From positions 1 to 64,000 of the forward strand of contig JAJDBM010000052.1 in NCBI GenBank assembly GCA_029261355.1: DNA of 64,000 nt, given 5' to 3'. Positions 9,616 to 25,720 of this stretch are shown one piece after another. A model generated the notes under the pieces. That model was not told where the DNA came from. It searched no databases and was given only the letters and a program-made list of their open reading frames with translations. Source of the DNA: Nitrospirales bacterium. GTDB taxonomy: Bacteria > Nitrospirota > Nitrospiria > Nitrospirales > UBA8639. The position numbers and the translations under genes were made by a program. Numbering within the stretch: the stretch's first letter is position 1; every line of letters begins with the position of its first letter.

Positions 9616-9989
9616 TGAGGTTCCTCCTTTAAAGTAAAGATCTTGACATTGCTTTGAGCTGGAGAAGATAAAATTTCTGGAAGGGGTAGGCCGCGGACGC
9701 GAGAATTGAGGCGACTCTGGTCAGACTTCCGGTTAGACTCCCGGGCAAAACAACATCGGTTAATGGACCTGCATTCGTTATCCCGTAATCATTAGGTCCC
9801 ATCTGATACGGTAGATTTAGCCTATCACAGCGTTTCATAAAAAGATACCAATTTCTTAGAGTTCTCTCAACTCTCTTACAAAAAAAAATCTCCCATAAAG
9901 TATAGATTTTATTGGCATATTCATTGCTAACCCACTGAGTGAAGGAGCTCTCGTCAAAATTCCCAATACCACTTGCTTAGGAGAAATCT
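9616..9989. other. Intergenic region between divergent genes
   Basis: These 374 bases separate the RRM gene (minus) from the FlaE-domain gene (plus). The part near 9840-9910 is AT-rich with an A-tract (9882-9890), possibly an IHF-type bend. A sigma-54 promoter sits at 9913-9928. The first 220 bases next to the RRM gene could form a long 5' leader. A 69-codon frame on the minus strand here has no ribosome site or recognisable protein and was not called. Confidence 0.5.
9913..9928 (+). promoter_or_regulatory. Sigma-54 (-24/-12) promoter for the FlaE-domain gene
   Basis: TGGCAT-N5-TTGCT matches the sigma-54 consensus, with GG at 9914-9915 and GC at 9926-9927 and exactly 10 bases between. It would start transcription near 9939, about 50 bases before ATG 9990. 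The sequence is nearly the same as that at 21260-21277, suggesting a common sigma-54 regulon. The activator is not identified. Confidence 0.7.
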
Positions 9990-11396
9990 ATGCATCAATT
10001 ACCTCAGTCAGCTTGCTTACGTGTCAACCACAGAACCGCGTTGACCTTTCTTTGCTTCATGGCCTTGTGTATATTTTCTACTGAATCTTCTGCTCTCGCC
10101 TTAACCAAGATTGAGCCCACAAACGACACAGCAAGCAATTCGTTGAATGCCCCACCCCCAACTACGATGGAAGCTCAAGCCACGACAATCGTCTCAATGT
10201 CTGGCAACCTTAGCGCCGGGGAGTACGTCAGAACGTTTAATATCGATGATCCAATCAATACCTCGGCCTTTAGTACTGGGTTCCAGATATTTGATTCACT
10301 TGGATTTGGACATGACGTGACCATGTATTTTACTAAGACTTCGGCTGTGAATAGTACGTGGCAATATAATATTATGGGGGTAGCCTCGGAGTTTACCGTC
10401 GTGGCAAGTTCGACATCCGCTGATGGGCTGAGTGACTTACTCGCAACAGGGACATTGGATTTTACCTATATGGGATTACTCGATACTGAAGGAACCCCAA
10501 CATATCACAATTCTGGCGACACTGGGTTGACCTTTACCAATGGAGCGGCACCGACCCTTTCGGCCGATCTCACCTTTAACTTTGGTACCAGTATTACGTC
10601 TGATGGTGGGGCTGGCACAGATGGAATGCATCAACAAGGAGGAGCTTCTGTCCTTCTTACACAAACACAAAATGGGTATGCCAATGGAGTACTGACTGCA
10701 TCCACCATTAATCAGGAGAGTGGCCAAGTGATTGGACGTTTTTCAAATGGACAAATTCGTATATTAGGCCAACTCAGTCCTACCATATTTGATATACCAA
10801 AAGGTAAGCGGGAACGTCGACAAAACAGGGAACGACGAAAGAAGCAAAACAGACGCAACGCGACCAATCCTGACACCGTCCAAGCCAAACAAAGTGGCGT
10901 CTGGACTGTTGGCCAACTCGGCACATGGCATGTCAAAATTGACAGCGATTACACCCAGCCAATGGCCGTGATGGATATGATGGCCGCCAAACAATCCCCC
11001 TGGGCAACGATGACAGGGTTTACGTTTGATGAGGGCCACAATAATGCCAAAACCGAAACGTTGACGATCCCAGAGAATCAGCGACTCGTCATTGAACACA
11101 TTTCCCTACTCAGTGACGCTGAGGGGCTATTAAAAAACTGGGACGACCAGAAAGTCACGGCCTCCATTCAGGTCATGCTGGATAATAAGCCCATCATCCA
11201 CCACATGGGAATTTCCGAGACATTCGTGACACGCTACCAAAGTGGGAAAAAACGCATCAAACAGGTGATCAGCGAGCCTATCCGCATCTATGCCGATCCC
11301 GACAGTCAAATCCAACTCCACATCGCACGAAGTTATTTCATTCACGAACAAACTGGGACCATTAGTCTCTCGGGCTATTTAGAACCGGTCATGTAA
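9990..11396 (+). CDS. Exported protein with orphan flagellar-hook FlaE (FlgE D2) domain
   Basis: This encodes 468 residues. A signal peptide covers about residues 1-36. Residues about 65-265 resemble the D2 domain of hook protein FlgE (Pfam FlaE): FQIFDSLGFGHDVTMYF, then a long beta-rich stretch, then the YANGVLTASTIN and FSNGQIRILGQ ending typical of hook proteins. The terminal rod/hook helices needed for flagellar export and assembly are absent. A very basic linker (about 271-290) leads to a C-terminal beta-rich domain (300-468) that I do not recognise. The protein seems to be a Sec-exported surface or periplasmic protein that reuses a hook domain. A sigma-54 promoter lies at 9913. Confidence 0.72.
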   Translation: MHQLPQSACLRVNHRTALTFLCFMALCIFSTESSALALTKIEPTNDTASNSLNAPPPTTMEAQATTIVSMSGNLSAGEYVRTFNIDDPINTSAFSTGFQIFDSLGFGHDVTMYFTKTSAVNSTWQYNIMGVASEFTVVASSTSADGLSDLLATGTLDFTYMGLLDTEGTPTYHNSGDTGLTFTNGAAPTLSADLTFNFGTSITSDGGAGTDGMHQQGGASVLLTQTQNGYANGVLTASTINQESGQVIGRFSNGQIRILGQLSPTIFDIPKGKRERRQNRERRKKQNRRNATNPDTVQAKQSGVWTVGQLGTWHVKIDSDYTQPMAVMDMMAAKQSPWATMTGFTFDEGHNNAKTETLTIPENQRLVIEHISLLSDAEGLLKNWDDQKVTASIQVMLDNKPIIHHMGISETFVTRYQSGKKRIKQVISEPIRIYADPDSQIQLHIARSYFIHEQTGTISLSGYLEPVM

Positions 11397-11668
11397 CTCT
11401 CGCCCCATCCTTTTCGAACATCACTCTTACTCTTGCGAGCTCGGTCCTGACCGGGCTCGCGTACAAATGACTTTCACGCCCGCCCAACACATGTTGCCCC
11501 ATGGGAAACTTCAAGATCTCACTCCTCGCAACTTCACCAATCAGAGATCAGCATACGTTTCGAGAAAATCACAGGACCCGTTTGTATCCAACCTTGTTTG
11601 ACAGAACTCTCTTAAAAGCATACCGTTTCACATGCATTTCTTTTCAATCTTTATCCAGGAGGTTTAAG
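11397..11668. other. Intergenic region before the CHRD gene
   Basis: These 272 bases hold a GC-rich dyad soon after the upstream stop (GAGCtcggtcctgaccggGCTC near 11438-11459), which could end the FlaE-domain transcript, and otherwise only the leader of the next gene. An in-frame extension upstream of ATG 11669 lacks a ribosome site. Confidence 0.4.
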
Positions 11669-12349
11669 ATGAGTAAGAAACATCGCATTCATACGTATGC
11701 CCTCTTAACATTCATTGGAGCCGTTAGTCTGCTCCTCACTATTGGATCGGTGAAGTCCGCTCAGGCCGTCTCCTTTACGGCCTTTCTCGATCGTGCTCAA
11801 GAAGTGGCACCTGGGGGAATGAGCAATTCACCACTCACTGGTTCAGCTCAACTAAAATTGGCGGAGACAGCTGGAATCTTTGCATTATCCTTTAACATTA
11901 CCTTTGACAGTGGCTTTGATTTCCAAAACTTTGGTGCAGCCAATCCCATTGGTGGAGAACTTGTCACAAACCTACATTTCCATAACAATGTTCGGGGAAT
12001 GAATGGCCCTGTCGTCTTCGGAATATTTGGCCCAAGTTCAGATCTCGATGGCGATACGATGGCTACGCTCAATGTCGACGGTACCACCACAGTTACGGGA
12101 GAGTGGGATCAAAATGAAGGTAATGCCGGAGCATCCCTGACTAACTTTATCTCTGCTTTGCAAAATGCAGGACCGGGTGAGGACGCCCCCCTTTATCTTA
12201 ACCTTCATAGCGAAAACGATCCGGCAGGCGTTATTCGTGGACAAGTTTCAGCTGTACCAGAACCAGGAACTCTTATGCTTCTTGGTAGCGGACTCTTAGG
12301 ACTCTCCGGCTACAACTGGATGCGACGTCTCCAAACCAAAAGACCATAA
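11669..12349 (+). CDS. CHRD-domain protein with PEP-CTERM anchor
   Basis: This encodes 226 residues from ATG 11669, chosen because AGGAGG lies 6 bases upstream. A signal peptide ends near AQA (about residue 33). A CHRD domain (about 34-195) has FTAFLDRAQEV at the start, LHFHNN in the middle and GVIRGQVS at the end. The C-terminus is a textbook PEP-CTERM signal: VPEPGTLMLLGSG, a hydrophobic stretch and a basic end. Such proteins are processed by an exosortase and linked to exopolysaccharide or surface layers. A strong hairpin terminator follows. Confidence 0.9.
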   Translation: MSKKHRIHTYALLTFIGAVSLLLTIGSVKSAQAVSFTAFLDRAQEVAPGGMSNSPLTGSAQLKLAETAGIFALSFNITFDSGFDFQNFGAANPIGGELVTNLHFHNNVRGMNGPVVFGIFGPSSDLDGDTMATLNVDGTTTVTGEWDQNEGNAGASLTNFISALQNAGPGEDAPLYLNLHSENDPAGVIRGQVSAVPEPGTLMLLGSGLLGLSGYNWMRRLQTKRP

Positions 12350-12375
12350 ACACATTCCACCTTATCCCTAGAACT

Positions 12376-12414
12376 CAAAGGCCTCCAAAGTGCAACAAGC
12401 TTTGGAGGCCTTTG
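12376..12414 (+). terminator. Strong hairpin terminator
   Basis: CAAAGGCCTCCAAAG at 12376-12390 and its perfect complement at 12400-12414 form a 15-bp stem with a 9-base loop just after the CHRD/PEP-CTERM stop. Only a short T-run follows. Confidence 0.8.
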
Positions 12415-12482
12415 CCATAGTAAAGCCAATTGACCAGATACAAATCATCATTCTCCTCGAACGGTAGTAGATCACCTTGATA

Positions 12483-12502
12483 TATACCTACTAGTTGGTA
12501 TA
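12483..12502. promoter_or_regulatory. TetR-type operator in the regulator's own promoter
   Basis: TATACCtACTAGTTGGTATA is a 20-bp palindrome with one mismatched pair. It fills the spacer between a TTGATA (12477-12482) and a TATACA (12499-12504), so bound repressor would block the promoter. Its core ACTAGTTGGT is repeated exactly at 13141-13150 in front of the thioredoxin gene. This indicates autoregulation. Confidence 0.75.
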
Positions 12503-12539
12503 CATTCTCAAGTACTACAGATAAATTGGAATTCATTCT

Positions 12540-13106
12540 ATGTTTAATCGAAAAGAACAAATACTCGATGTGGCCGAGGAGATTCTCCAAACTCAAAGCC
12601 TTAGCTCATTTAGTTATCAGGATTTGTCTGACAGAATTGGCATTAGCAAAGCTAGCATTCACCATCACTTTCCCAGCAAAGAAGAGTTGTGCCTGGCCTT
12701 AGTGACTCGACATCGTTCTTCCCTGACCACCACTCTAGAAACCATTACTCAAGAGCAAACGAACCCCATACAACAATTAGACGCCTACATGTTGCACGTT
12801 TCGCAAATCCTACAATCAGGAAGCAAAATCTGCCTCACAGGATCACTTCAATCGGAATACACATTACTCTCTAAAAATACTCAACAGGAATTGTCCAACC
12901 TTTGTAAATATGTTCATACCTGGCTCTCCAGAGTGCTCGCTGAAGGAAAGAAACAGAAAGTTATGGCATTTCCTGGAACGTCAGAAGACCACGCGTCTCT
13001 GATACAAGCAGCACTCCAAGGTGCATTACAACAGGCTCGATCTGAAAGCCCGAAACAATTCAATGCTGTCATTCGACAGATCAAAGTTCTACTCAAGGGA
13101 AAATAA
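12540..13106 (+). CDS. TetR/AcrR-family transcriptional repressor
   Basis: This 188-residue protein has an N-terminal helix-turn-helix (about residues 5-50; FSYQDLSDRIGISKASIHHH is the recognition unit) of the TetR type and a helical ligand-binding part behind it. The Cys in SKICLTGSLQSE and the length match the YxaF/AcrR-like TetR group that often responds to electrophiles or quinones. It probably represses itself and the downstream trx-qor-DUF5069 genes through the shared ACTAGTTGGT palindromes. The inducer is unknown. Confidence 0.9.
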   Translation: MFNRKEQILDVAEEILQTQSLSSFSYQDLSDRIGISKASIHHHFPSKEELCLALVTRHRSSLTTTLETITQEQTNPIQQLDAYMLHVSQILQSGSKICLTGSLQSEYTLLSKNTQQELSNLCKYVHTWLSRVLAEGKKQKVMAFPGTSEDHASLIQAALQGALQQARSESPKQFNAVIRQIKVLLKGK

Positions 13107-16316: not shown

Positions 16317-17180
16317 TTACGAAGTAGTCTGTGTGGCTTTTCTCCAACGCCAACCAACTAAACCAACAAGTCCAGAGCCAAGCAGCAATAAGGTGGAAGG
16401 TTCAGGCACTGCCGCAGGCACAGAAGAGACACTGATACGCGCGACCTGATATCCAGACTCCGTAAAGTCACCACCTGGAAAAGCCTGTAAGATATTTCCC
16501 CCCGGGATAAAACCTAAATGAGACTCAACTGTTCCCCCTTCAGCGATACCCGTATTCGGGTCCATTTGCCCAAGAAATGCGGTATTCATAGGGACTTCAT
16601 CATTCACTTCTGTCCCGGCATCAAGAACCTGCGACCCTAGGACGAAAAAATCTGCCCCCACAAAATTTCCCATACCATCAAACAGCTCATGGATCAAAGG
16701 ATTGCCATTGGCGATAAAGGCATCATTCGATGGAATCACCATAGACGCATAACTAAAATACTGATTATTGCCAGCTTGAATATCAAATGTTTGACTGGTA
16801 GCCGTTTCTTGAGGATCAATCGGGCCTGGTAACCCGCTACTCACACCCAATACCGTCCCATCAACTCCACCATTACCACCAGCTGAGCTACTCCCAAAGT
16901 TGGAAGACACTGGACCGGTATCCCCGTCTTCGACTAATGACTCCAATCCAGCAGGTAGACCTGAGGCTCCTCCAATCGCAGTCCCTCGATCATATAAATC
17001 AAATGACCCGTCATGAAAACCTACCCACAATGGTGTGAGAAAAACCCCATTCGCAGGTGATAAGTTTTGAATCGTAACTTGAACCGAAAGGGCCCATACA
17101 AAAGAAGAAGTGAGAAGCACGCAACCGAAGGTACTGATGGCCACAGTCAATAATGCTCGCTTACCAATCACAGCTATCAT
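16317..17180 (-). CDS. Spondin_N-domain protein with PEP-CTERM anchor
   Basis: This encodes 287 residues from the ATG at 17180, chosen because AAGGAGGG precedes it. A signal peptide covers about residues 1-30. The body resembles the bacterial Spondin_N domain: VTIQNLSPANG, TPLWVGFHDGSFDLYDRG, GNNQYFSYASMVIPSNDAF. The C-terminus is a PEP-CTERM signal (VPEPSTLLLLGSG, then a hydrophobic and basic end). It is an exosortase-processed extracellular protein. The OmpR-like regulator gene lies just upstream on the same strand, 125 bases away. Confidence 0.9.
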   Translation of the reverse strand: MIAVIGKRALLTVAISTFGCVLLTSSFVWALSVQVTIQNLSPANGVFLTPLWVGFHDGSFDLYDRGTAIGGASGLPAGLESLVEDGDTGPVSSNFGSSSAGGNGGVDGTVLGVSSGLPGPIDPQETATSQTFDIQAGNNQYFSYASMVIPSNDAFIANGNPLIHELFDGMGNFVGADFFVLGSQVLDAGTEVNDEVPMNTAFLGQMDPNTGIAEGGTVESHLGFIPGGNILQAFPGGDFTESGYQVARISVSSVPAAVPEPSTLLLLGSGLVGLVGWRWRKATQTTS

Positions 17181-17305
17181 GATGATTGCCCTCCTTGAAG
17201 TGAACCGACATATGCAAACTGCTATCTCCAACTCATGACTCTAACTCGGAATCAAAAGTAATGCGACGCAAGTTTTGTAAGGTTTCTGTAAAGATTTCGT
17301 CTCGT

Positions 17306-18091
17306 TCACGTACGAGCTCGGATGCTGACAACCGCGAATTGATAACCTAATCCTCGCACCGACTGTAGAAACATGGGATTCGACAAATCAGGTTCGATTT
17401 TTTTTCGCAGATTACTAATATGCACATCCACGACACGCGGCACCACGGCATCAGGTTCGCTATACAAGACACTAATTAATTCATCTCGAGAAAACACGCG
17501 ACCAGGACAAGTCATTAATAATTCAAGGATTTTATATTCAGAAGGAGTCAATGAAAACGTCCTCCCCATCAAGGTCACGTGATGGCGATCAGAATCTAAG
17601 AAACATGCACGCTGTCGTCTGAACGCAGGAGCCTGAACTCCATGTTTGTGTTGCGGTTGAATAGAGGTAGAACCGTGAACCATGGCTCCAGACTTATCCT
17701 GAGAATCAAAGAGTAGTGGACCACCACTAAAAGATACGTTTGCGAGATGATCCGATGGCTTCAGACCTGACAACACGATCGAGATGGGTACGTCAGTATA
17801 CTCACGAATTACTTGACATAGTTCCCACGCCACGCTCAAGGATACATGCCTATCCTGGACAACACACACAACCATTGGTGGGACTGAAGCATGAAGCTCA
17901 CCACTCCATTGGGAGATTTCGCAGGAATCAAGGCCAGCTAACGCCAATTGCTTTGCAAGTAATGGAGCCCACTTTTGCTCTTTTTCAATGATAATAATCG
18001 AACCAGAGGACCAATGGGTATTGCAAAGCGCGTCTTGATACGGACTGGAAGGGGACAGCTGAAATGTGGAAGCCAAAACAAAGTCCTCCAT
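17306..18091 (-). CDS. OmpR-type winged-helix regulator with degenerate receiver
   Basis: This encodes 261 residues. The C-terminal ~100 residues form an OmpR/PhoB winged helix (LTPSEYKILELLM, VVDVHISNLRKKIE, VRGLGYQF). The N-terminal part (about 30-125) folds like a receiver (SIIIIEKEQKWAPLLAKQL, ISIVLSG) but lacks the acidic pair after strand 1, an Asp in the usual DLxLP context and the conserved Lys, so phosphorylation is unlikely. An unconserved linker of about 45 residues joins them. No kinase gene is adjacent. It may regulate the downstream Spondin_N/PEP-CTERM gene (inference). Confidence 0.85.
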   Translation of the reverse strand: MEDFVLASTFQLSPSSPYQDALCNTHWSSGSIIIIEKEQKWAPLLAKQLALAGLDSCEISQWSGELHASVPPMVVCVVQDRHVSLSVAWELCQVIREYTDVPISIVLSGLKPSDHLANVSFSGGPLLFDSQDKSGAMVHGSTSIQPQHKHGVQAPAFRRQRACFLDSDRHHVTLMGRTFSLTPSEYKILELLMTCPGRVFSRDELISVLYSEPDAVVPRVVDVHISNLRKKIEPDLSNPMFLQSVRGLGYQFAVVSIRART

Positions 18092-18456
18092 TTCACCCTA
18101 TGTCCCGGAAACACCTAAGACGTTACACGACAGAATTACAAAAACGATTGGGCCTAACCAGTGAAAAGCTTGACCGAAAGTTTTGCCAACGATTTCGAAC
18201 TAAACCGTCACTCATATCCATGTTGATATGGACATGTGCCACATCAAATACGGCCATTCAAATGAGATGAGAGAAGCCCTCTGTCATGGTAAGGAGGCAT
18301 AGAACAATTAACCAGGAATCCGATCCTACGATGAAAGGGGCAACTAGGAAAAATCAAGGGGGAAGAAAGCTTTCGCTTTAGCCCACTTACAACACATCCC
18401 CTTCCCATTCCTTAAGAAGCCCTAACTGTCTTTTCTGCCAACAAGAGAATCATGAA
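18092..18456. other. Intergenic region, no gene seen
   Basis: These 365 bases lie upstream of the OmpR-like regulator and beyond the stop of the cytochrome gene. A short plus-strand frame at 18064-18270 is hydrophilic, has no ribosome site and no recognisable family. No terminator or promoter of note was identified. Confidence 0.4.
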
Positions 18457-18807
18457 TCATTGATGACTCAAACTACGAACATACGCAAAGACGTTAAGAA
18501 TATCCTTATTGGTAAGATCGCCTTCCCAAGCTGGCATCGAAGTCCCCGGTTTTCCTTTGCGGATAATCTTCAAGAGCTTTTCATCAGATTTATGTTGCAT
18601 ATCCTCACTGGTCAAATTTGCTGGTCTTGGCGTCAGGTCTGCGGCCAATGGCCCATCACCTTGACCCGTCGAACCATGGCACATAACACAATACATCTTA
18701 TAGACATGTTCCCCTTGTTCAGCCGTCCCAGCTTCTCCAAATACGAGAGAAGCCTCTAAAACGAAAAGGAAACATACTAAGAGACAACCCACCATGTGAA
18801 GTCTCAC
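18457..18807 (-). CDS. Small periplasmic c-type cytochrome
   Basis: This encodes 116 residues from GTG 18807, preferred because AAGGAGG lies 7 bases upstream; an in-frame ATG further out has no site. A signal peptide ends near VFGEA. The mature protein has one heme site, YCVMCHGSTGQGDGP, and a likely Met axial ligand in TSMPAWEGDL, the normal class I (cytochrome cbb3-like/c6-like) layout. It would carry electrons in the periplasm. The partner is unknown; the neighbours are exported CHRD and SOD proteins on the same strand. Confidence 0.92.
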   Translation of the reverse strand: MRLHMVGCLLVCFLFVLEASLVFGEAGTAEQGEHVYKMYCVMCHGSTGQGDGPLAADLTPRPANLTSEDMQHKSDEKLLKIIRKGKPGTSMPAWEGDLTNKDILNVFAYVRSLSHQ

Positions 18808-18898
18808 ACGTATTCCTCCTTGACTATCAATCATAAGGGCACCTCTAAAAAGATATTCGACTCTGACTCATCCCATCGGGCAAACGGGCAGCAATCTA

Positions 18899-19429
18899 TC
18901 ATTTTTCCCTCTGAAAATGAGGGGGAAGCACTTGGCCTCGTATTTCTCCACCTGGGAATTTGTCAGTATGCACATTCAAATACCACAAGCCTTTTCGCAA
19001 CCAGCGTAATTCCTGCTTATTCAGTGGACCGACACATCCGATCTTAGGCACACCAAAAGCTGAGGGGCCTCCCGATGCTGGAGGCGAAATAAAAAACAGC
19101 ACAGGAGCATTCTCCCCAATTGAAGCGGGTGCGTGAAAATGCGCTTCAGTCTCTTTACCAGTGAGATGCTGGAAACTGATCGAATAACAAACCTTACGGG
19201 TCTTTTCATGATAGTTCAGCATCGCATTACCCATCGCACCACTTGTGGGCGGGGCACTCCGTTGTTTTAACTTGAATGCTTCTTGGCCTGCGTTTAAGAC
19301 TGCCGTGAAAGGAACATCCGCATAGACTGGGGACACAATGACAATCCAGCTATGCACAAGTAGCGACAGAAACAGTAATAAGCCACTCAAACGTCTGGAT
19401 ACAACATTCTGTCTAATATTCCACCGCAT
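18899..19429 (-). CDS. Exported CHRD-domain protein
   Basis: This encodes 176 residues from the ATG at 19429 (GGGAG 9 bases upstream; an alternative ATG at 19456 gives 185). A signal peptide ends near VYADVP. The CHRD domain (about 45-165) shows FTAVLNAGQEA, ETEAHFHAPASIGENAPVLF and GGEIRGQVLP. It lacks the PEP-CTERM tail seen in the other CHRD protein at 11669. Two Cys (KVCYS, KIGCVG) could form a disulfide. It is probably co-transcribed with the cytochrome c gene 92 bases downstream. The function of CHRD domains in bacteria is not established. Confidence 0.85.
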   Translation of the reverse strand: MRWNIRQNVVSRRLSGLLLFLSLLVHSWIVIVSPVYADVPFTAVLNAGQEAFKLKQRSAPPTSGAMGNAMLNYHEKTRKVCYSISFQHLTGKETEAHFHAPASIGENAPVLFFISPPASGGPSAFGVPKIGCVGPLNKQELRWLRKGLWYLNVHTDKFPGGEIRGQVLPPHFQREK

Positions 19430-19673
19430 ACATCGAAACTCCCAGTCTAAAACCATAAGAGCACCCGATTGTTATTCTACATCGGCTTCGACCCTATGAC
19501 GACACGGCCCACACTATTTCAGAAAAACTCCTAAAACCTGAGTTGCTGCACCACCACAGGTACTCGACAAGAAATACAACAAACTCAGGCTCTAGCCGTT
19601 CAGCTCAATGTAACCCCAGACTACATACTCACAACTGCAAGGCGACAATCTCTTCACATTTCCTAATGAACTA

Positions 19674-20294
19674 CTATCGCGACCAACGAGGACCACCGTG
19701 ACTTCGTGGCTTGACTGATTCGATGATGCCACAAGCCAAACGACCTCCTCCGGCACAGCCCGCTTCCTCCCCATTTGGACAAAAAGTATCAGGGTTTATA
19801 TGGACGATAAACGCACTCCCATCTTCATCAAAGATGCTCAGTGGCCCATCGGAAAGTGTAACCCGAGTTGTCGTCGTATGAAGGACCCCGGTCCCATGAT
19901 TGACATCAAGATTGATCAGGTCACCCAGGTGAAACGGATGATTACCATCGGGACTGGTATTACTATTTGGACCTGGATCAAAATGGCCTCTGGCTTCCCC
20001 ACACGGCTCACAACTTGCCGTCTCGTGAATATGCACCCCATGTTCACCATCTGGAAGATCATCCCCTCTGAGGAACATGGTCACGCTCACTTCTTTCACA
20101 CCTTGATCAGATCGTCGCTCTTTCAACACCGCTCGTCCTCGAATGTCATCTCCAACATTACAAGCACGCATCTTGGCTTGAGCCTTCACCTTCCCTCCCC
20201 TGTTTCTGGCCTCAGCATCATCTACCACCACACCAACAAATGCGACGGAAAGACCTAGAAAAATACATCCTGTAAAAATCTGAGAAACGTTCAT
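19674..20294 (-). CDS. Periplasmic Cu/Zn superoxide dismutase-like protein
   Basis: This encodes 206 residues with an N-terminal signal peptide (cleavage near AEA). Cu/Zn SOD landmarks are GVHIHE (two copper ligands), GHFDPG and HPFHLGDL (zinc and bridging His), LSDGPLSIFDEDGSAFIVH (Asp zinc ligand and last copper His) and the C-terminal GCAGGGRLACGII. All metal-binding positions appear present, so it should dismutate periplasmic superoxide. AAGGAGG precedes the ATG. The C-terminus is short and basic. It lies upstream of the exported CHRD and cytochrome c genes on the same strand. Confidence 0.9.
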   Translation of the reverse strand: MNVSQIFTGCIFLGLSVAFVGVVVDDAEARNRGGKVKAQAKMRACNVGDDIRGRAVLKERRSDQGVKEVSVTMFLRGDDLPDGEHGVHIHETASCEPCGEARGHFDPGPNSNTSPDGNHPFHLGDLINLDVNHGTGVLHTTTTRVTLSDGPLSIFDEDGSAFIVHINPDTFCPNGEEAGCAGGGRLACGIIESVKPRSHGGPRWSR

Positions 20295-20792
20295 TACAAC
20301 CTCCTTATATTAAAAGAGTTACATCGAGCTCTGGCCAAAAAATTTGGAGAAAAACCTCAAGATAGTCATTTATACGTATATCTTTATGCACACCACTCCT
20401 GCGAAAACCATATCCGGCCTATCCTAAACATTGCGCCGACAGCTATACGGAAATGCCAATCAAGCTTACAAGATGCTCAATGCGACGTTTCTCTGTCACC
20501 AACGTCACTCCACCTCTATATATCGAACATTCGAATGATGGATTTTGGCAAGACCTTGCTAGGCTATCGAGACGTTCCTTCACAGAGAACTTAATTTTCT
20601 TCGCAGTTGAACTGAATCACGTTTATCAGGGATGAACATCAGCCTGCCCAGGATCAGTGAATATTTAAATGTTCTTCCTGCGCGCGCATCGACGACATTG
20701 CCTCAACACTTGAACCTTACCCCCTCCGACAACCTCTTTCAGTGTTCGGAAGGGGTAATCGTACCTTGCATTCTATTATTGACATCTGGGTT
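20295..20792. other. Intergenic region with one hairpin
   Basis: These 498 bases lie between the SOD gene and the WEDEF gene, both on the minus strand. Bases 20717-20757 can form a hairpin (TTACCCC and TCCGA pairing with TCGGA and GGGGTAA), placed after the WEDEF gene stop as a transcript-end structure without a U-tract. A 60-codon plus-strand frame at 20453 was not accepted. Nothing else was recognised. Confidence 0.45.
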
Positions 20793-21152
20793 TTAAATGG
20801 CTTGCCAGGCTTCATGATCCCAAGACGCCGCATTTTCTTTTTCCATCATGACTTGGTTATTTTTTGCTGAATCTTTCATGGGAACGTCATACACAAACTC
20901 ATCTTCCCAATCAATGACTGGAGTATTAGAAGATACGGTCGCCATCGGCTTTTTTGAAACAGTCATAGACTTCTGTTCTTTGGCCATACGAGTAGAACGG
21001 ACATCCTGAGTAAATTCGTCTTCCCAATCTATGATCACCTGCGTCTGTGAACCATAAGATTGAGGGAGTGGTTCCGCAAATACTGGGAATGCACTTCCGA
21101 ACATGACTAAGACTGCGAGACAACCTGTGGTCAATACTAAATGCTTTTTCAT
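20793..21152 (-). CDS. Small exported protein with repeated acidic WEDEF motifs
   Basis: This encodes 119 residues. A signal peptide covers residues 1-26 (cleavage after VFA). The mature part has two copies of a 39-residue-spaced unit: IDWEDEF at 41-47 and IDWEDEF at 80-86, each followed by DV and a lysine-rich stretch, and a third weaker version SWDHEAW at 110-116. No known domain was recognised. AAAGGAGG precedes the ATG. A near-perfect sigma-54 promoter lies 108-125 bases upstream, next to a sigma-54 response-regulator gene, so it is probably the output of that two-component system. The aromatic-acidic motifs could bind a cation or a partner protein (speculative). Confidence 0.8.
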   Translation of the reverse strand: MKKHLVLTTGCLAVLVMFGSAFPVFAEPLPQSYGSQTQVIIDWEDEFTQDVRSTRMAKEQKSMTVSKKPMATVSSNTPVIDWEDEFVYDVPMKDSAKNNQVMMEKENAASWDHEAWQAI

Positions 21153-21259
21153 GACATCCTCCTTTAAAAACGTTTGAAAATACAGTGCCTATTGAGGCAT
21201 CTTCAAGACAACTTTTGTTGTTATCGCTTGCCTCTGTTACATCAACTGCAACATGATTT

Positions 21260-21277
21260 AGCAAAGGGGATGCCAAA
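21260..21277 (-). promoter_or_regulatory. Sigma-54 (-24/-12) promoter of the WEDEF gene
   Basis: Read on the minus strand, TTTGGCATccccTTTGCT has GG (21274-21273) and GC (21262-21261) with exactly 10 bases between, a near-consensus sigma-54 promoter. Transcription would start near 21249, giving a leader of about 97 bases before the WEDEF ATG. The sigma-54 activator gene ends 210 bases upstream. Confidence 0.8.
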
Positions 21278-21339
21278 CTGCTTCAGATGCAGCAGCATCA
21301 CCACAAACTACTAATATTAAAGAGTTATTTGATGAGAAA

Positions 21340-21441
21340 GCATGAATTCATGCTCATTGATTCTGATCATTTGCCAATGATCTTACGGCCAAGCCTCAAG
21401 ATACGACGGCCGTGAAGGTGAGACTCCGCAGCATGCTGCGG
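21340..21441. promoter_or_regulatory. Cluster of palindromes upstream of the sigma-54 promoter
   Basis: Three perfect dyads occur within 102 bases: GCATGAATTCATGC (21340-21353), GATCATTtgccAATGATC (21365-21382) and CCGCAGCATGCTGCGG (21426-21441). The first two lie about 65-110 bases upstream of the -24 element and are candidate enhancer sites for the response regulator. The third, nearer the regulator stop, may be a transcript-end hairpin. All roles are inferred. Confidence 0.55.
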
Positions 21442-21486
21442 CGGCAATGTATCGTGGAAAAAGAAATGCTAAGAAAGCGGGAAAAG

Positions 21487-23307
21487 TCAGGTAGGGATGA
21501 CGGGACGTTTAATGCCTAATTTCTGCATCCGAAATCGTAGGGTACTGGGGTTCAGTCCGAGAATAGTCGCGGCTCCGTTATCACCTTCTAAGACACCGCG
21601 GGTCGATTCAAGAATCTGGATAATATGAGCCCGTTCAAGGTCTCGAAGCGTACGATGCTCCACACCAACTGGCCCAGGGGGTTCTATTTCGACTGGGGCC
21701 TCCATGAGCGGGTCCAGGACATCATCAATCTCCACAACGGAGCTTGTGGCTAAAATTGAAGCACGTTCCACGACATTCATGAGTTCACGAACATTGCCTG
21801 GCCATGAGTAATCAATCAAACGAGCGACTGACTCGCCTGAAAATCGATCCAAATCCTTTCCAAGCCGACGAGCCAGCTTTTTGAGAAAATGTCCTGCTAA
21901 TAACGGGATGTCGTCCTGTCGTTCACGGAGAGGTGGCACCTGAAGAGGAAAGATATTGAGTCGATAAAAGAGATCTGCTCGAAACGTCCCTCCTTTTACC
22001 GCCTCTTGTAAATTTCGATTCGTCGCGGCAATAAGGCGCACATCGACTCGAACGACCTGGCTACTCCCAACTCGCTCAAATTCCTGTTCTTGAAGAACAC
22101 GTAGTAACTTCACCTGCGTCTCGGCAGATAGCTCCCCAATTTCGTCAAGAAAGAGGGTTCCTCCATCAGCCAGCTCAAACCGCCCCACACGCTTGGCGAT
22201 AGCTCCAGTAAATGCGCCTTTTTCATGTCCAAACAATTCACTTTCCACTAACCCAGGCGAGATGGCCCCACAATTGACCTTAACCATCGGCCGCTGCTTG
22301 CGGTGACTTTTCTCATGAATGGCTCGTGCGAGCACTTCCTTACCAGTACCAGTTTCGCCTTGAATCAGGACGGTAGAATCGGTAGGACTGACATGATCAA
22401 TGAGACTCAACACTTTCCGTAGGCTTTCACTGCCCACAACCACTTCCCCATAATTCTGCCCAGCATCGACCTCTTCTTGAAGATAATGATTATGTGCTCT
22501 CAGGCGAGCATTCTGCTCCTCTGCTTGCTTGCGATCATTGATATCGACAACAAATCCTTCATAGGACACTAAGCTGTTGGACGAGTCATAAATACCTCGA
22601 ACATTTTCCGATATCCAAATCTCATCACCGTTCTTTTTGCGAATTTTCGATTCAAAATTTGAGACAACGTTGTCTCGAAAGAGCATGTCCTGAAACTCAC
22701 GCCGCCGTCCTGTTTCGACATAAATTTCAGATTCGATATAACGACAAGATTCGAGTAAATTCTTGGGTGAGCTATAGCCTAAGATATGAGCCAACATGGA
22801 ATTCGCACTCAAAAATTGACCACTCAGAGTAGTCTGGAAAATTCCAACAACGGCGTTCTCAAACACACCACGATAGTTTTCTTCGGCTCGTTGCAATGCA
22901 GTATTTTTCTCCTGCAAATCCTTTTGTAATTGCCGAAGCGCAAGATGCGTCGTGATACGAGCCAGAACTTCCTCTTGCTGTATGGGTTTCGTCACATAAT
23001 CAACCGCGCCAGCTAAAAACCCTTTGACCTTATCAACGGTTTCAGACAATGCGGTCATAAAGATGACCGGAATGTCTTTGGTCGCATCCACAGTTTTTAA
23101 CCGGCGACATGTTTCAAATCCATCAATGCCAGGCATCATCACATCCAACAAAATCAGGTCTGGACAAGATTGCGTCACTTGTTCAATTGCTTGCTCTCCA
23201 TCCATGGCCACAAATACCTCAAAACCTAATTCGATAAGATAATCAGCAAGGACCTGTAAGTTGGTTGGCGTATCGTCAACGATATAAATTTTACCGAGAT
23301 TAGGCAT
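21487..23307 (-). CDS. Sigma-54-dependent response regulator (REC-PAS-AAA+-Fis)
   Basis: This encodes 606 residues from ATG 23307, which overlaps the kinase stop by 8 bases (ATGCCTAA). The receiver has an acidic pair at 11-12, phospho-acceptor D55 in LLDVMMPG and a Lys in YVTKP. A PAS domain follows (about 155-275), then a short coil, then the AAA+ domain with GETGTGKE, GAFTGA and [11 protein letters not shown], and a C-terminal Fis helix-turn-helix (LNPSTLRFRMQKLGI). A PAS between receiver and AAA+ is less common than the NtrC layout and suggests a second input. The likely target is the WEDEF gene promoter immediately downstream. Confidence 0.95.
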   Translation of the reverse strand: MPNLGKIYIVDDTPTNLQVLADYLIELGFEVFVAMDGEQAIEQVTQSCPDLILLDVMMPGIDGFETCRRLKTVDATKDIPVIFMTALSETVDKVKGFLAGAVDYVTKPIQQEEVLARITTHLALRQLQKDLQEKNTALQRAEENYRGVFENAVVGIFQTTLSGQFLSANSMLAHILGYSSPKNLLESCRYIESEIYVETGRRREFQDMLFRDNVVSNFESKIRKKNGDEIWISENVRGIYDSSNSLVSYEGFVVDINDRKQAEEQNARLRAHNHYLQEEVDAGQNYGEVVVGSESLRKVLSLIDHVSPTDSTVLIQGETGTGKEVLARAIHEKSHRKQRPMVKVNCGAISPGLVESELFGHEKGAFTGAIAKRVGRFELADGGTLFLDEIGELSAETQVKLLRVLQEQEFERVGSSQVVRVDVRLIAATNRNLQEAVKGGTFRADLFYRLNIFPLQVPPLRERQDDIPLLAGHFLKKLARRLGKDLDRFSGESVARLIDYSWPGNVRELMNVVERASILATSSVVEIDDVLDPLMEAPVEIEPPGPVGVEHRTLRDLERAHIIQILESTRGVLEGDNGAATILGLNPSTLRFRMQKLGIKRPVIPT

Positions 23308-25720
23308 GACGCTCTTGATTCCTCTTCTGTTCAATCGATCGAGTGAGAAACGCACACAATTGCTTCATGAGAAAACCATCAGCAAGCCGACGCAATTCCG
23401 CCACAAATGGCTGGAGAGACTGATCTGTTTGAGACAACCTCTGAATACAATCGCGCATAGCAGATATATTCCCTCGATTCGCGATATCTAAAAGATCCCC
23501 AAGCTCTTCTACTGATGGTAATATCAATGTTGGTGTCGATGAATTAGTTTTCCCCTGCTCCAGATATTCAGACTCATACACCCACTCAAGGTCGAGAAGT
23601 TCCCCCAACACATGAACTAAATCAGTTACCAGAACGGGCTTAGGCAGAAAGTCATTAAATCCAGCTTCCAAACATTGCGTTTGAGTATCCTCAAATACAT
23701 TAGCTGACAACGCGATCATGGCCATCGACTGGATAACTGAAGACCGACGAATATGTTGTGCGACCGCTCGACCATCCATTCCTGGCATCACCAGATCTAC
23801 CAACATAATGTCCGGCCTTATTTCTTCTGCTTTTTTAATGGCTTCTTCACCGGTATTCGCCTCGGTGACAACAAAACCTAGGGGCTGCAACAAGTCTGAA
23901 AGAAAGGACCGATTCTCGATATTATCATCGACAATCAATATATGTCGGACATTGCCTTTATAGGCCACCACATATCGACCATCATGGACCTTCTGTTCTA
24001 TAGGTCCCGTTACTTCGGCAAGATCTATCAGAATCCAAAAGCGACTGCCCTTATGAACAATACTCGTCACATGAAGTTTCCCACCCATACAGTTCACCAA
24101 ACGCTGACAAATCGTCAAACCCAACCCCGTTCCCTCTGCCCGTATTCGCCCATCAATGACTTGTTGAAAGGGAAGAAAAATAGTTTCCAGTTTTTCGGAA
24201 TCAATACCAATGCCTGTATCCTCGACCTCGAAACGTAATTGACGCCGATCACCAATCTCTCCATGCATGTCCACGCGAAACGTTACCGAGCCCTGCTCCG
24301 TAAACTTCATCGCATTACTCAACAGGTTTAAGAGCACCTGCCGAAGACGCTTGGTATCCCCTTGAACCCACACTGGCAAATGTCGACTTGGCATATACAG
24401 AAACGTGAGTCCTTTTTGATCAGCTCGTACTTGAGCAAGATTCACGATGGCATCAAGAAATTCTGGTAAATGAAACGTACCAAGATGTAGTTCCATTTTT
24501 CGTGCCTCAATCTTAGAGAGATCAAGAATATCATTCACAAGAGTGAGTAAATGCTCCCCACTCTCATGGATCACCTTCACCCCTTTCTGCTGTTTCGCTG
24601 CGAGACTTTTGTCACGTTTAAAAATTTGCGTGTACCCGAGAATCCCATTCAGGGGTGTTCGAAACTCATGGCTCATGTTGGCTAAAAAGTCACTTTTGGC
24701 TCGACTGGCTTGTTCGGCGATTTCCCGGGCCTGGGCTTCAGCTTGCTGGGCCAATTGACGTTCGCCAATTTGACGTTGCAGTTCAACATTCGTCTCGGAC
24801 AACTCCTCAGTTCTCAACTCAACTTGCTGCTCCAACCCCTCTTTAGATTTGGCCAAAGCCAGGCTTGCCTTTTTTAATTGAAGTAACATGACGCCAATAT
24901 ACAGAACAAACAGCACAGAGAGCAGATACAAGGCCATGCGATAAAATTCGGCACGGCTGTCTAATTCGCCTTGCAATGCACTATACGCACGATCGATTTG
25001 ATCAAGCGCATCATTGGTCGGCATCTGCAAAATTTTGGGAATGAGCGAATCAAGAGTTTTTGTCGATTCGATAATCTTGTGGGCATGGGAGACCAGGGTC
25101 TCGAGGTCATCCTGCCCTTCGGGCAACAGCCGATCATGCCACTGTTGCAACACCGCCAAGTTAGTTAAGACTTGATGTTGCCTCTCGCCAGTGGATCGCT
25201 GAATATAGAGCAGCATACCCTGGAGAACACGTCCAGCATCACGGTCAACAGATTGTCGTTTCACCTTGTCAGGCACCAGATCGACAAGTCCTTTGACACC
25301 ACTCGGAAAATACCGAACGGAATTATGCAGCACGGAATTACTCGCCTGAAATCGTGCCAACATCTCCACCTTATCAGTCAACAAATGACCATAGGCGGAA
25401 AGCAGATCATCTAACTCCTGGGATCCTATGTTGAGAATTTGATGGGGTCCCTTCGTTAAAACTCCATAGGTTGCCAATAGCGCTTCTTTGGCTTCCATCA
25501 AACCTTCGTAATGGGGCAAAAATTCAGCTCGTGTCCGTAAAAGATCCTGATGAAGCAAGGCTTCCCAACGCTTCATCTCCTGCATGTCAAGAAGTCGCCG
25601 ATGATGCGTCTCGCGATCGTAGGACTGTGTCAGGACAAACAAAGTCGTCACCGCACCTAACATGAGCAGAAGTACACATACATGAAAAAGTGTACTTCTA
25701 CTCATCAACATTCTGATCAC
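23300..25720 (-). CDS. Hybrid sensor histidine kinase
   Basis: This encodes 806 residues with transmembrane helices at about 11-31 and 260-282, enclosing a roughly 230-residue all-helical periplasmic sensor that resembles the DAHL type (inference). Then come a coiled coil, HisKA with phospho-His in NMSHEFRTPLNG, a HATPase domain (NLLSNAMKF, DTGIGI, GTGLGL), and a C-terminal receiver with phospho-acceptor in MLVDLVMPGMDG. A roughly 100-residue tail may be an Hpt-like or helical extension without an obvious His motif. The start codon is GTG at 25720 or an ATG a few codons in. It is translationally coupled to the sigma-54 response regulator. Confidence 0.93.
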   Translation of the reverse strand: MIRMLMSRSTLFHVCVLLLMLGAVTTLFVLTQSYDRETHHRRLLDMQEMKRWEALLHQDLLRTRAEFLPHYEGLMEAKEALLATYGVLTKGPHQILNIGSQELDDLLSAYGHLLTDKVEMLARFQASNSVLHNSVRYFPSGVKGLVDLVPDKVKRQSVDRDAGRVLQGMLLYIQRSTGERQHQVLTNLAVLQQWHDRLLPEGQDDLETLVSHAHKIIESTKTLDSLIPKILQMPTNDALDQIDRAYSALQGELDSRAEFYRMALYLLSVLFVLYIGVMLLQLKKASLALAKSKEGLEQQVELRTEELSETNVELQRQIGERQLAQQAEAQAREIAEQASRAKSDFLANMSHEFRTPLNGILGYTQIFKRDKSLAAKQQKGVKVIHESGEHLLTLVNDILDLSKIEARKMELHLGTFHLPEFLDAIVNLAQVRADQKGLTFLYMPSRHLPVWVQGDTKRLRQVLLNLLSNAMKFTEQGSVTFRVDMHGEIGDRRQLRFEVEDTGIGIDSEKLETIFLPFQQVIDGRIRAEGTGLGLTICQRLVNCMGGKLHVTSIVHKGSRFWILIDLAEVTGPIEQKVHDGRYVVAYKGNVRHILIVDDNIENRSFLSDLLQPLGFVVTEANTGEEAIKKAEEIRPDIMLVDLVMPGMDGRAVAQHIRRSSVIQSMAMIALSANVFEDTQTQCLEAGFNDFLPKPVLVTDLVHVLGELLDLEWVYESEYLEQGKTNSSTPTLILPSVEELGDLLDIANRGNISAMRDCIQRLSQTDQSLQPFVAELRRLADGFLMKQLCAFLTRSIEQKRNQERHA

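Follow-up and report, generated by a model that had tools for sequence, protein, structure and literature searches.

A predicted Sec-exported protein carrying the D2 domain of the flagellar hook in a Nitrospirales bacterium: a possible hook mimic

The DNA analysed, a stretch of 64,000 nt referred to here as the window, belongs to a 4.6 Mb genome in 74 contigs (G000). An intact frame of 468 codons and a stop, beginning with ATG, lies at 9990–11396 on the forward strand and is preceded by a ribosome-binding site, AGGAGA (9979–9984, +), read from the sequence. A predicted sigma-54 promoter, TTGGCATATTCATTGCT (9912–9928, +), is placed 61 bp before the ATG; it scored 15.0 of 15.5 in a consensus scan and has the −24/−12 form, with GG and GC 10 bases apart. 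The neighbouring genes in the window encode RRM, CHRD and TetR proteins, and no flagellar gene was found near the gene within the 64,000 nt, as the initial annotation had stated. The single true FlgE of the genome is encoded amid flagellar genes on contig C12 (L002, 982–2322).

Residues 1–37 (9990–10100, +) form a putative Sec signal peptide, as had been proposed. By inspection, the basic residues R11, H14 and R15 are followed by a hydrophobic segment (16–29), and A35-L36-A37 followed by L38 gives a probable cleavage between ALA and LT; a hydrophobic N-terminal segment, likewise a putative signal peptide by inspection, is present in all four orthologues described below. The FlgE D2 domain and an adjoining D1 strand occupy residues 56–262 (10155–10775, +), assigned from Pfam, the fold match and DNA identity to the genome's own flgE. 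The hook D2-like domain that had been claimed was borne out by a Pfam FlgE_D2 (PF07559) match at residues 82–230, with 50.7 bits against a cut-off of 22.7 (E = 3.4e-13). The terminal regions of rod and hook proteins had been reported missing, and neither Flg_bb_rod nor Flg_bbr_C matched the 468-aa protein in Pfam at E up to 10; alignment with FlgE has both termini replaced. The NCBIfam FlgE models matched residues 57–274 and covered just the middle of FlgE; their scores fell well short of the cut-offs (70.5 against 400 bits, and likewise for the others). A linker at residues 270–292 (PKGKRERRQNRERRKKQNRRNAT; 10797–10865, +) stands in place of the FlgE D1 continuation, and the switch to K/R-rich sequence falls where FlgE enters D1 (NPxGLxxxGxNLF). 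Its description as highly basic agrees with a count of 13 K/R to 3 D/E over residues 269–304; it is basic in all four orthologues, with variable sequence. The C-terminal domain (residues 298–468; 10881–11393, +), with a predicted jelly-roll beta-sandwich at ∼332–468, is conserved in four genomes only. The PEP-CTERM motif (PF07589) was not matched in the protein; the product of the neighbouring gene has one.

A structure prediction from the four orthologues alone reached a pLDDT of 37.5 and was discarded, while addition of FlgE D2 segments raised this to 71. In the resulting model, pLDDT is ∼90 or more over most of residues 61–170 and ∼59–88 in the rest of the hook-like part. Comparison with FlgE D2 structures, which the initial annotation had put forward as a check, gave a match: residues 56–261 superpose on residues 139–313 of FlgE in 1wlg (Z 14.8, rmsd 2.9 Å). 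Thus, what was copied is D2 together with the D1 strand next to it. The C-terminal domain had been described as unrecognised; the domain is indeed present, but it is a predicted jelly roll conserved in three relatives, with residues 332–468 modelled as a beta-sandwich (pLDDT ∼65–86) that matches many jelly rolls at Z 8–9.7. Since this fold is common, the matches to the model give a probable fold and not a function. No sequence similarity of the domain to known jelly-roll proteins was detectable, and a likeness to viral proteins from Foldseek, with low TM-scores, was put down to common beta folds.

Full-length relatives, with 37–39% overall identity, are found in three genomes (G025, G042 and G048) of a sister genus of the same family. 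A search for the C-terminal domain recovered it in 4 of 49 family genomes and, among 296 genomes drawn from the phylum, in the window's own only; a profile scan of a species-level genome collection returned the same three relatives and no others, and a contig scan of the collection with the single protein as query gave no match. In these four genomes the domain is always joined to D2, and no D2-less carrier was found there. The question whether homologues share the architecture was answered positively, the basic linker and the jelly-roll C-terminal domain being conserved in all three relatives. Four congeners of the window's genome have FlgE and lack the exported gene. Any association of the exported gene with presence of flagella is in the expected direction, on as few as four genomes with the gene. 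Several other candidates for kinship were set aside. The weak hit that this domain gave to FlgA of the same genome (13.5 bits, E = 0.13) looks like chance, as do weak matches across the order, which involve different proteins and different parts of the profile. As to a phage origin of the gene, no phage record matched, and the plasmid matches were ordinary FlgE where annotated.

The three sister-genus proteins (L004, L005 and L006) have an extra segment before D2, e.g. GNIIQKLSHKRTQIIGQA, similar to the hairpin that follows D2, GEIIGRYSNGQTKVLGQA; the arrangement looks like a duplication of the D1 hairpin to either side of the domain. The extra segment is absent from the window's protein. Elsewhere in the order, G068, G267 and G089 each have two FlgE_D2 genes within ∼1.5 kb, apparently tandem FlgE paralogues. 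In genus g4 of family f1, a FlgE_D2 match was found in none of the 14 listed genomes, all at least 90% complete, which suggests loss of flagella in that genus.

The gene sits in a 2.7 kb segment (9852–12548), together with a CHRD/PEP-CTERM gene, that is absent between the RRM and TetR genes in the congeners G002 and G003. In both, these two genes are directly adjacent and the flanks are syntenic with the window on both sides, so that the segment is either an insertion in the window's genome or a loss in the congeners. The locus differs between the two genera. In the three sister-genus genomes (G025, G042 and G048) the exported gene is a convergently oriented neighbour of lon, and G025 and G048 have additional genes in common to either side of it.

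A site of the form TGGCAT-N5-TTGCT is found 61–71 bp upstream of the start codon in all four orthologues, and is the only clearly conserved upstream block. The strict sigma-54 pattern has 12 matches genome-wide, against 0 and 1 for reversed-pattern controls. A sigma-54 promoter almost the same as that of a gene for a WEDEF protein had been claimed, and both sites were recovered, at 9912–9928 (+) and 21260–21276 (−). Other strict sites precede flgF (followed by flgG and flgA), a PEP-CTERM protein, two related exported proteins, a sugar-nucleotide epimerase, response regulators and a sigma-54 activator-like protein. Sigma-54-type sites also lie just 3′ of flgE in the relatives; in the window's genome, flgE is followed by a fliL-like gene and the site is weaker. 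The predicted regulon thus likely covers both flagellar and exported surface proteins, and sharing of the promoter cannot by itself choose between a flagellar and a surface role.

Some features of these sigma-54-associated genes may be recorded here. The WEDEF gene (20793–21152, −) encodes a 119-aa exported protein with two copies of a (V)IDWEDEF motif, and had a sub-threshold Pfam match only (LOR). It belongs to a minus-strand run of exported proteins at 16317–25720 that includes PEP-CTERM, CHRD, Cu/Zn superoxide dismutase and cytochrome-like proteins, and that adjoins a sigma-54 response regulator with a PAS domain (21487–23355) and a hybrid histidine kinase with a DAHL domain (23300–25720). 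The two related exported proteins (L083 and L084, contig C54 of the same genome) are ∼255 aa long and encoded 5 kb apart, each with its own strict sigma-54 site.

The exported D2 of the window is 69–72% identical in protein sequence to the D2 of the genome's own FlgE, and its DNA is 77% identical to the resident flgE over 496 bases (10197–10688). Between the two genera, D2 protein identity is just ∼40–50%. In three trees the window's exported D2 was sister to its own FlgE (97–99% bootstrap; 97/93, 99/94 and 98/92), and a single clade of all four exported D2s was rejected (log-likelihood loss 57, p = 0.002; loss 88, p = 0.0003). The three sister-genus D2s formed a clade in an early tree made without that genus's own FlgEs; the clade was lost once those were added, and the D2 core of G025 then paired with the G025 FlgE (100/97). 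For the D2 core, a clade of the three was rejected (p = 0.023), and in six of six sliding windows the best match of the G025 exported protein was its own FlgE. The two also share an insert around PTAP (IGSVIPTAP / VGATNPTAP) found in no other sequence compared. Past D2, the G025 protein matches the other exported proteins (52–58%) and not its own FlgE (36%, rank 20 of 32). Because the flank matches exported proteins while the core matches FlgE, the rejection is lost when the flanking hairpin is included in the tree (p = 0.36). The G025 gene is thus a mosaic at the lon-side locus common to the three genomes. The exported D2s of G042 and G048 pair together and are not nearest to their own FlgEs. 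On these trees and alignments, an exported gene with one carrier has probably received its D2 from the resident flgE on at least two separate occasions. After copying, D2 evolved faster than FlgE, with a branch ∼4 times longer, yet under purifying selection (dN/dS ∼0.16–0.36 on the orphan branches, with dS near saturation for G025), and it therefore has some function.

The reading we favour, tentatively and at somewhat under an even chance, is that the gene encodes a Sec-exported hook mimic acting on a partner that recognises or touches hook D2. The signal peptide would take the protein out of the cytoplasm, apart from the flagellar export apparatus. Because the D0 helices and most of D1 are absent, it should be unable to polymerise as a hook subunit. 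D2 forms the outer layer of the hook and its surface lattice (PMC6874566), and here this outermost domain would be displayed by the basic linker and the jelly roll together, a carrier that may anchor the protein at acidic polysaccharide of the envelope or matrix. We infer a location beyond the periplasm; no outer-membrane export route was identified. The exported D2 would then engage some partner that recognises or contacts the surface of the cell's own hook. The partner could be the hook itself, for instance if flagella are tethered or modulated in a sigma-54-controlled surface programme, or it could be a hook-binding phage or another hook-recognising agent, with the exported protein as a decoy; phage chi binds polyhooks, though poorly (PMC9266447). 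Action by resemblance to the hook is the most likely mode, since D2 has been kept, the parts for polymerisation dropped, the export route changed and D2 drawn from the resident flgE. More doubtful is the further proposal that the exported copy of the cell's own outer hook domain is refreshed from flgE as the hook changes, serving as a decoy or as a ligand of its own hook. Matching to the own hook is not universal, as the exported D2s of G042 and G048 are not nearest to it. Of the published hook D2–D2 contact positions, the exported D2 keeps 15 of 24, compared with 115 of 152 positions elsewhere (p = 0.21), so that they are not specially conserved; congener FlgEs keep 22 of 24. This speaks mildly against copolymerisation or lattice insertion via the D2–D2 interface. 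It also counts against a mimic that just four members are known and that the gene is missing from the congeners.

The chief alternative is a matrix or adhesion protein, in which D2 would be a mere stable beta-domain or a general adhesin within a sigma-54-controlled exopolysaccharide/PEP-CTERM programme and the likeness to the own hook would mean nothing. We regard this as rather unlikely, although several observations speak for it: the CHRD/PEP-CTERM gene that accompanies the exported gene in the extra segment, the sigma-54 sites before the PEP-CTERM protein, the epimerase and exported proteins, the part played by RpoN-dependent PEP-CTERM proteins in floc formation elsewhere (PMC9850573), the ordinary conservation of the hook contact positions, and the two of four orphans that are unlike their own FlgE. 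By itself it leaves unexplained why the resident flgE was the source of D2 in two separate cases, and the exported protein itself lacks a PEP-CTERM motif. Neutral gene conversion, that is, a single origin from flgE followed by occasional overwriting by the resident flgE, with a likeness that brings no advantage, would yield the same trees; such conversion is expected between similar paralogues, and the G025 mosaic fits it. The present DNA identity of just 71–77% over ∼500 bases is, however, poor for recombination, conversion free of selection should be rare between D2s whose counterparts in the two genera have diverged so far, and purifying selection after copying indicates some function. We therefore judge it improbable.

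Two further explanations concern the origin of the gene rather than its role. If D2 had been joined to one and the same carrier in two or three unrelated fusions, without an ancestor that already bore a hook domain, the D2 domains would not form one clade and the loci could differ between the two genera, both of which are observed. However, no carrier lacking D2 was found: every copy of the C-terminal domain, all of them in these four genomes, is attached to D2. The four also agree in their promoter, signal peptide and linker and in the order of their domains, and we hold this explanation to be very improbable. A decaying flgE fragment or an assembly artefact is refuted for practical purposes. 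The long D2 branch would suit decay, but the frame is intact over 468 codons and under purifying selection, a signal peptide and a promoter are present, three orthologues come from other assemblies, and the flanks are syntenic with those of congeners on both sides.

The analysis goes beyond the initial annotation in three respects: the nearest sequence is the genome's own hook protein, the D2 domains do not have a single history, and one to two D1 strands accompany D2. This is a new type of protein built on a known domain. We found no further instance of a non-flagellar use of a hook domain, either in the genomes searched or, with FlgE and FlaE-domain proteins as the subject, among the open-access papers searched. 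The apparent fresh copying of D2 from the own hook gene in two separate lineages suggests that resemblance to the hook is the purpose of the protein. If an organelle gene does repeatedly supply a structural domain to an exported protein, this would be a rare example of a molecule that is kept matched to the organelle it resembles, and the finding points to an unknown partner, or an unknown parasite, of the hook surface.

Among known systems, the predicted jelly roll of residues 332–468 shares its fold with nucleoplasmin cores, satellite virus coats and the BcsB crown, without detectable sequence similarity to them. Sigma-54-controlled PEP-CTERM/exopolysaccharide proteins, such as Aquincola pepA (PMC9850573), are likewise exported and have a probable RpoN promoter; the exported gene adjoins a PEP-CTERM gene and has the same type of strict sigma-54 site as the PEP-CTERM gene of its genome. 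In contrast to PEP-CTERM surface proteins, its product lacks a sorting motif and has a hook domain. With the genome's own FlgE it has in common D2, one adjoining D1 strand and the FlgE fold. FlgE, however, has the D0/D1 terminal regions for hook building, is encoded in the flagellar cluster on C12 and is exported by the flagellar apparatus without a Sec signal, whereas the exported protein is without those regions, is encoded outside the flagellar genes, and carries a Sec signal peptide (by inspection), a basic linker and a jelly roll.
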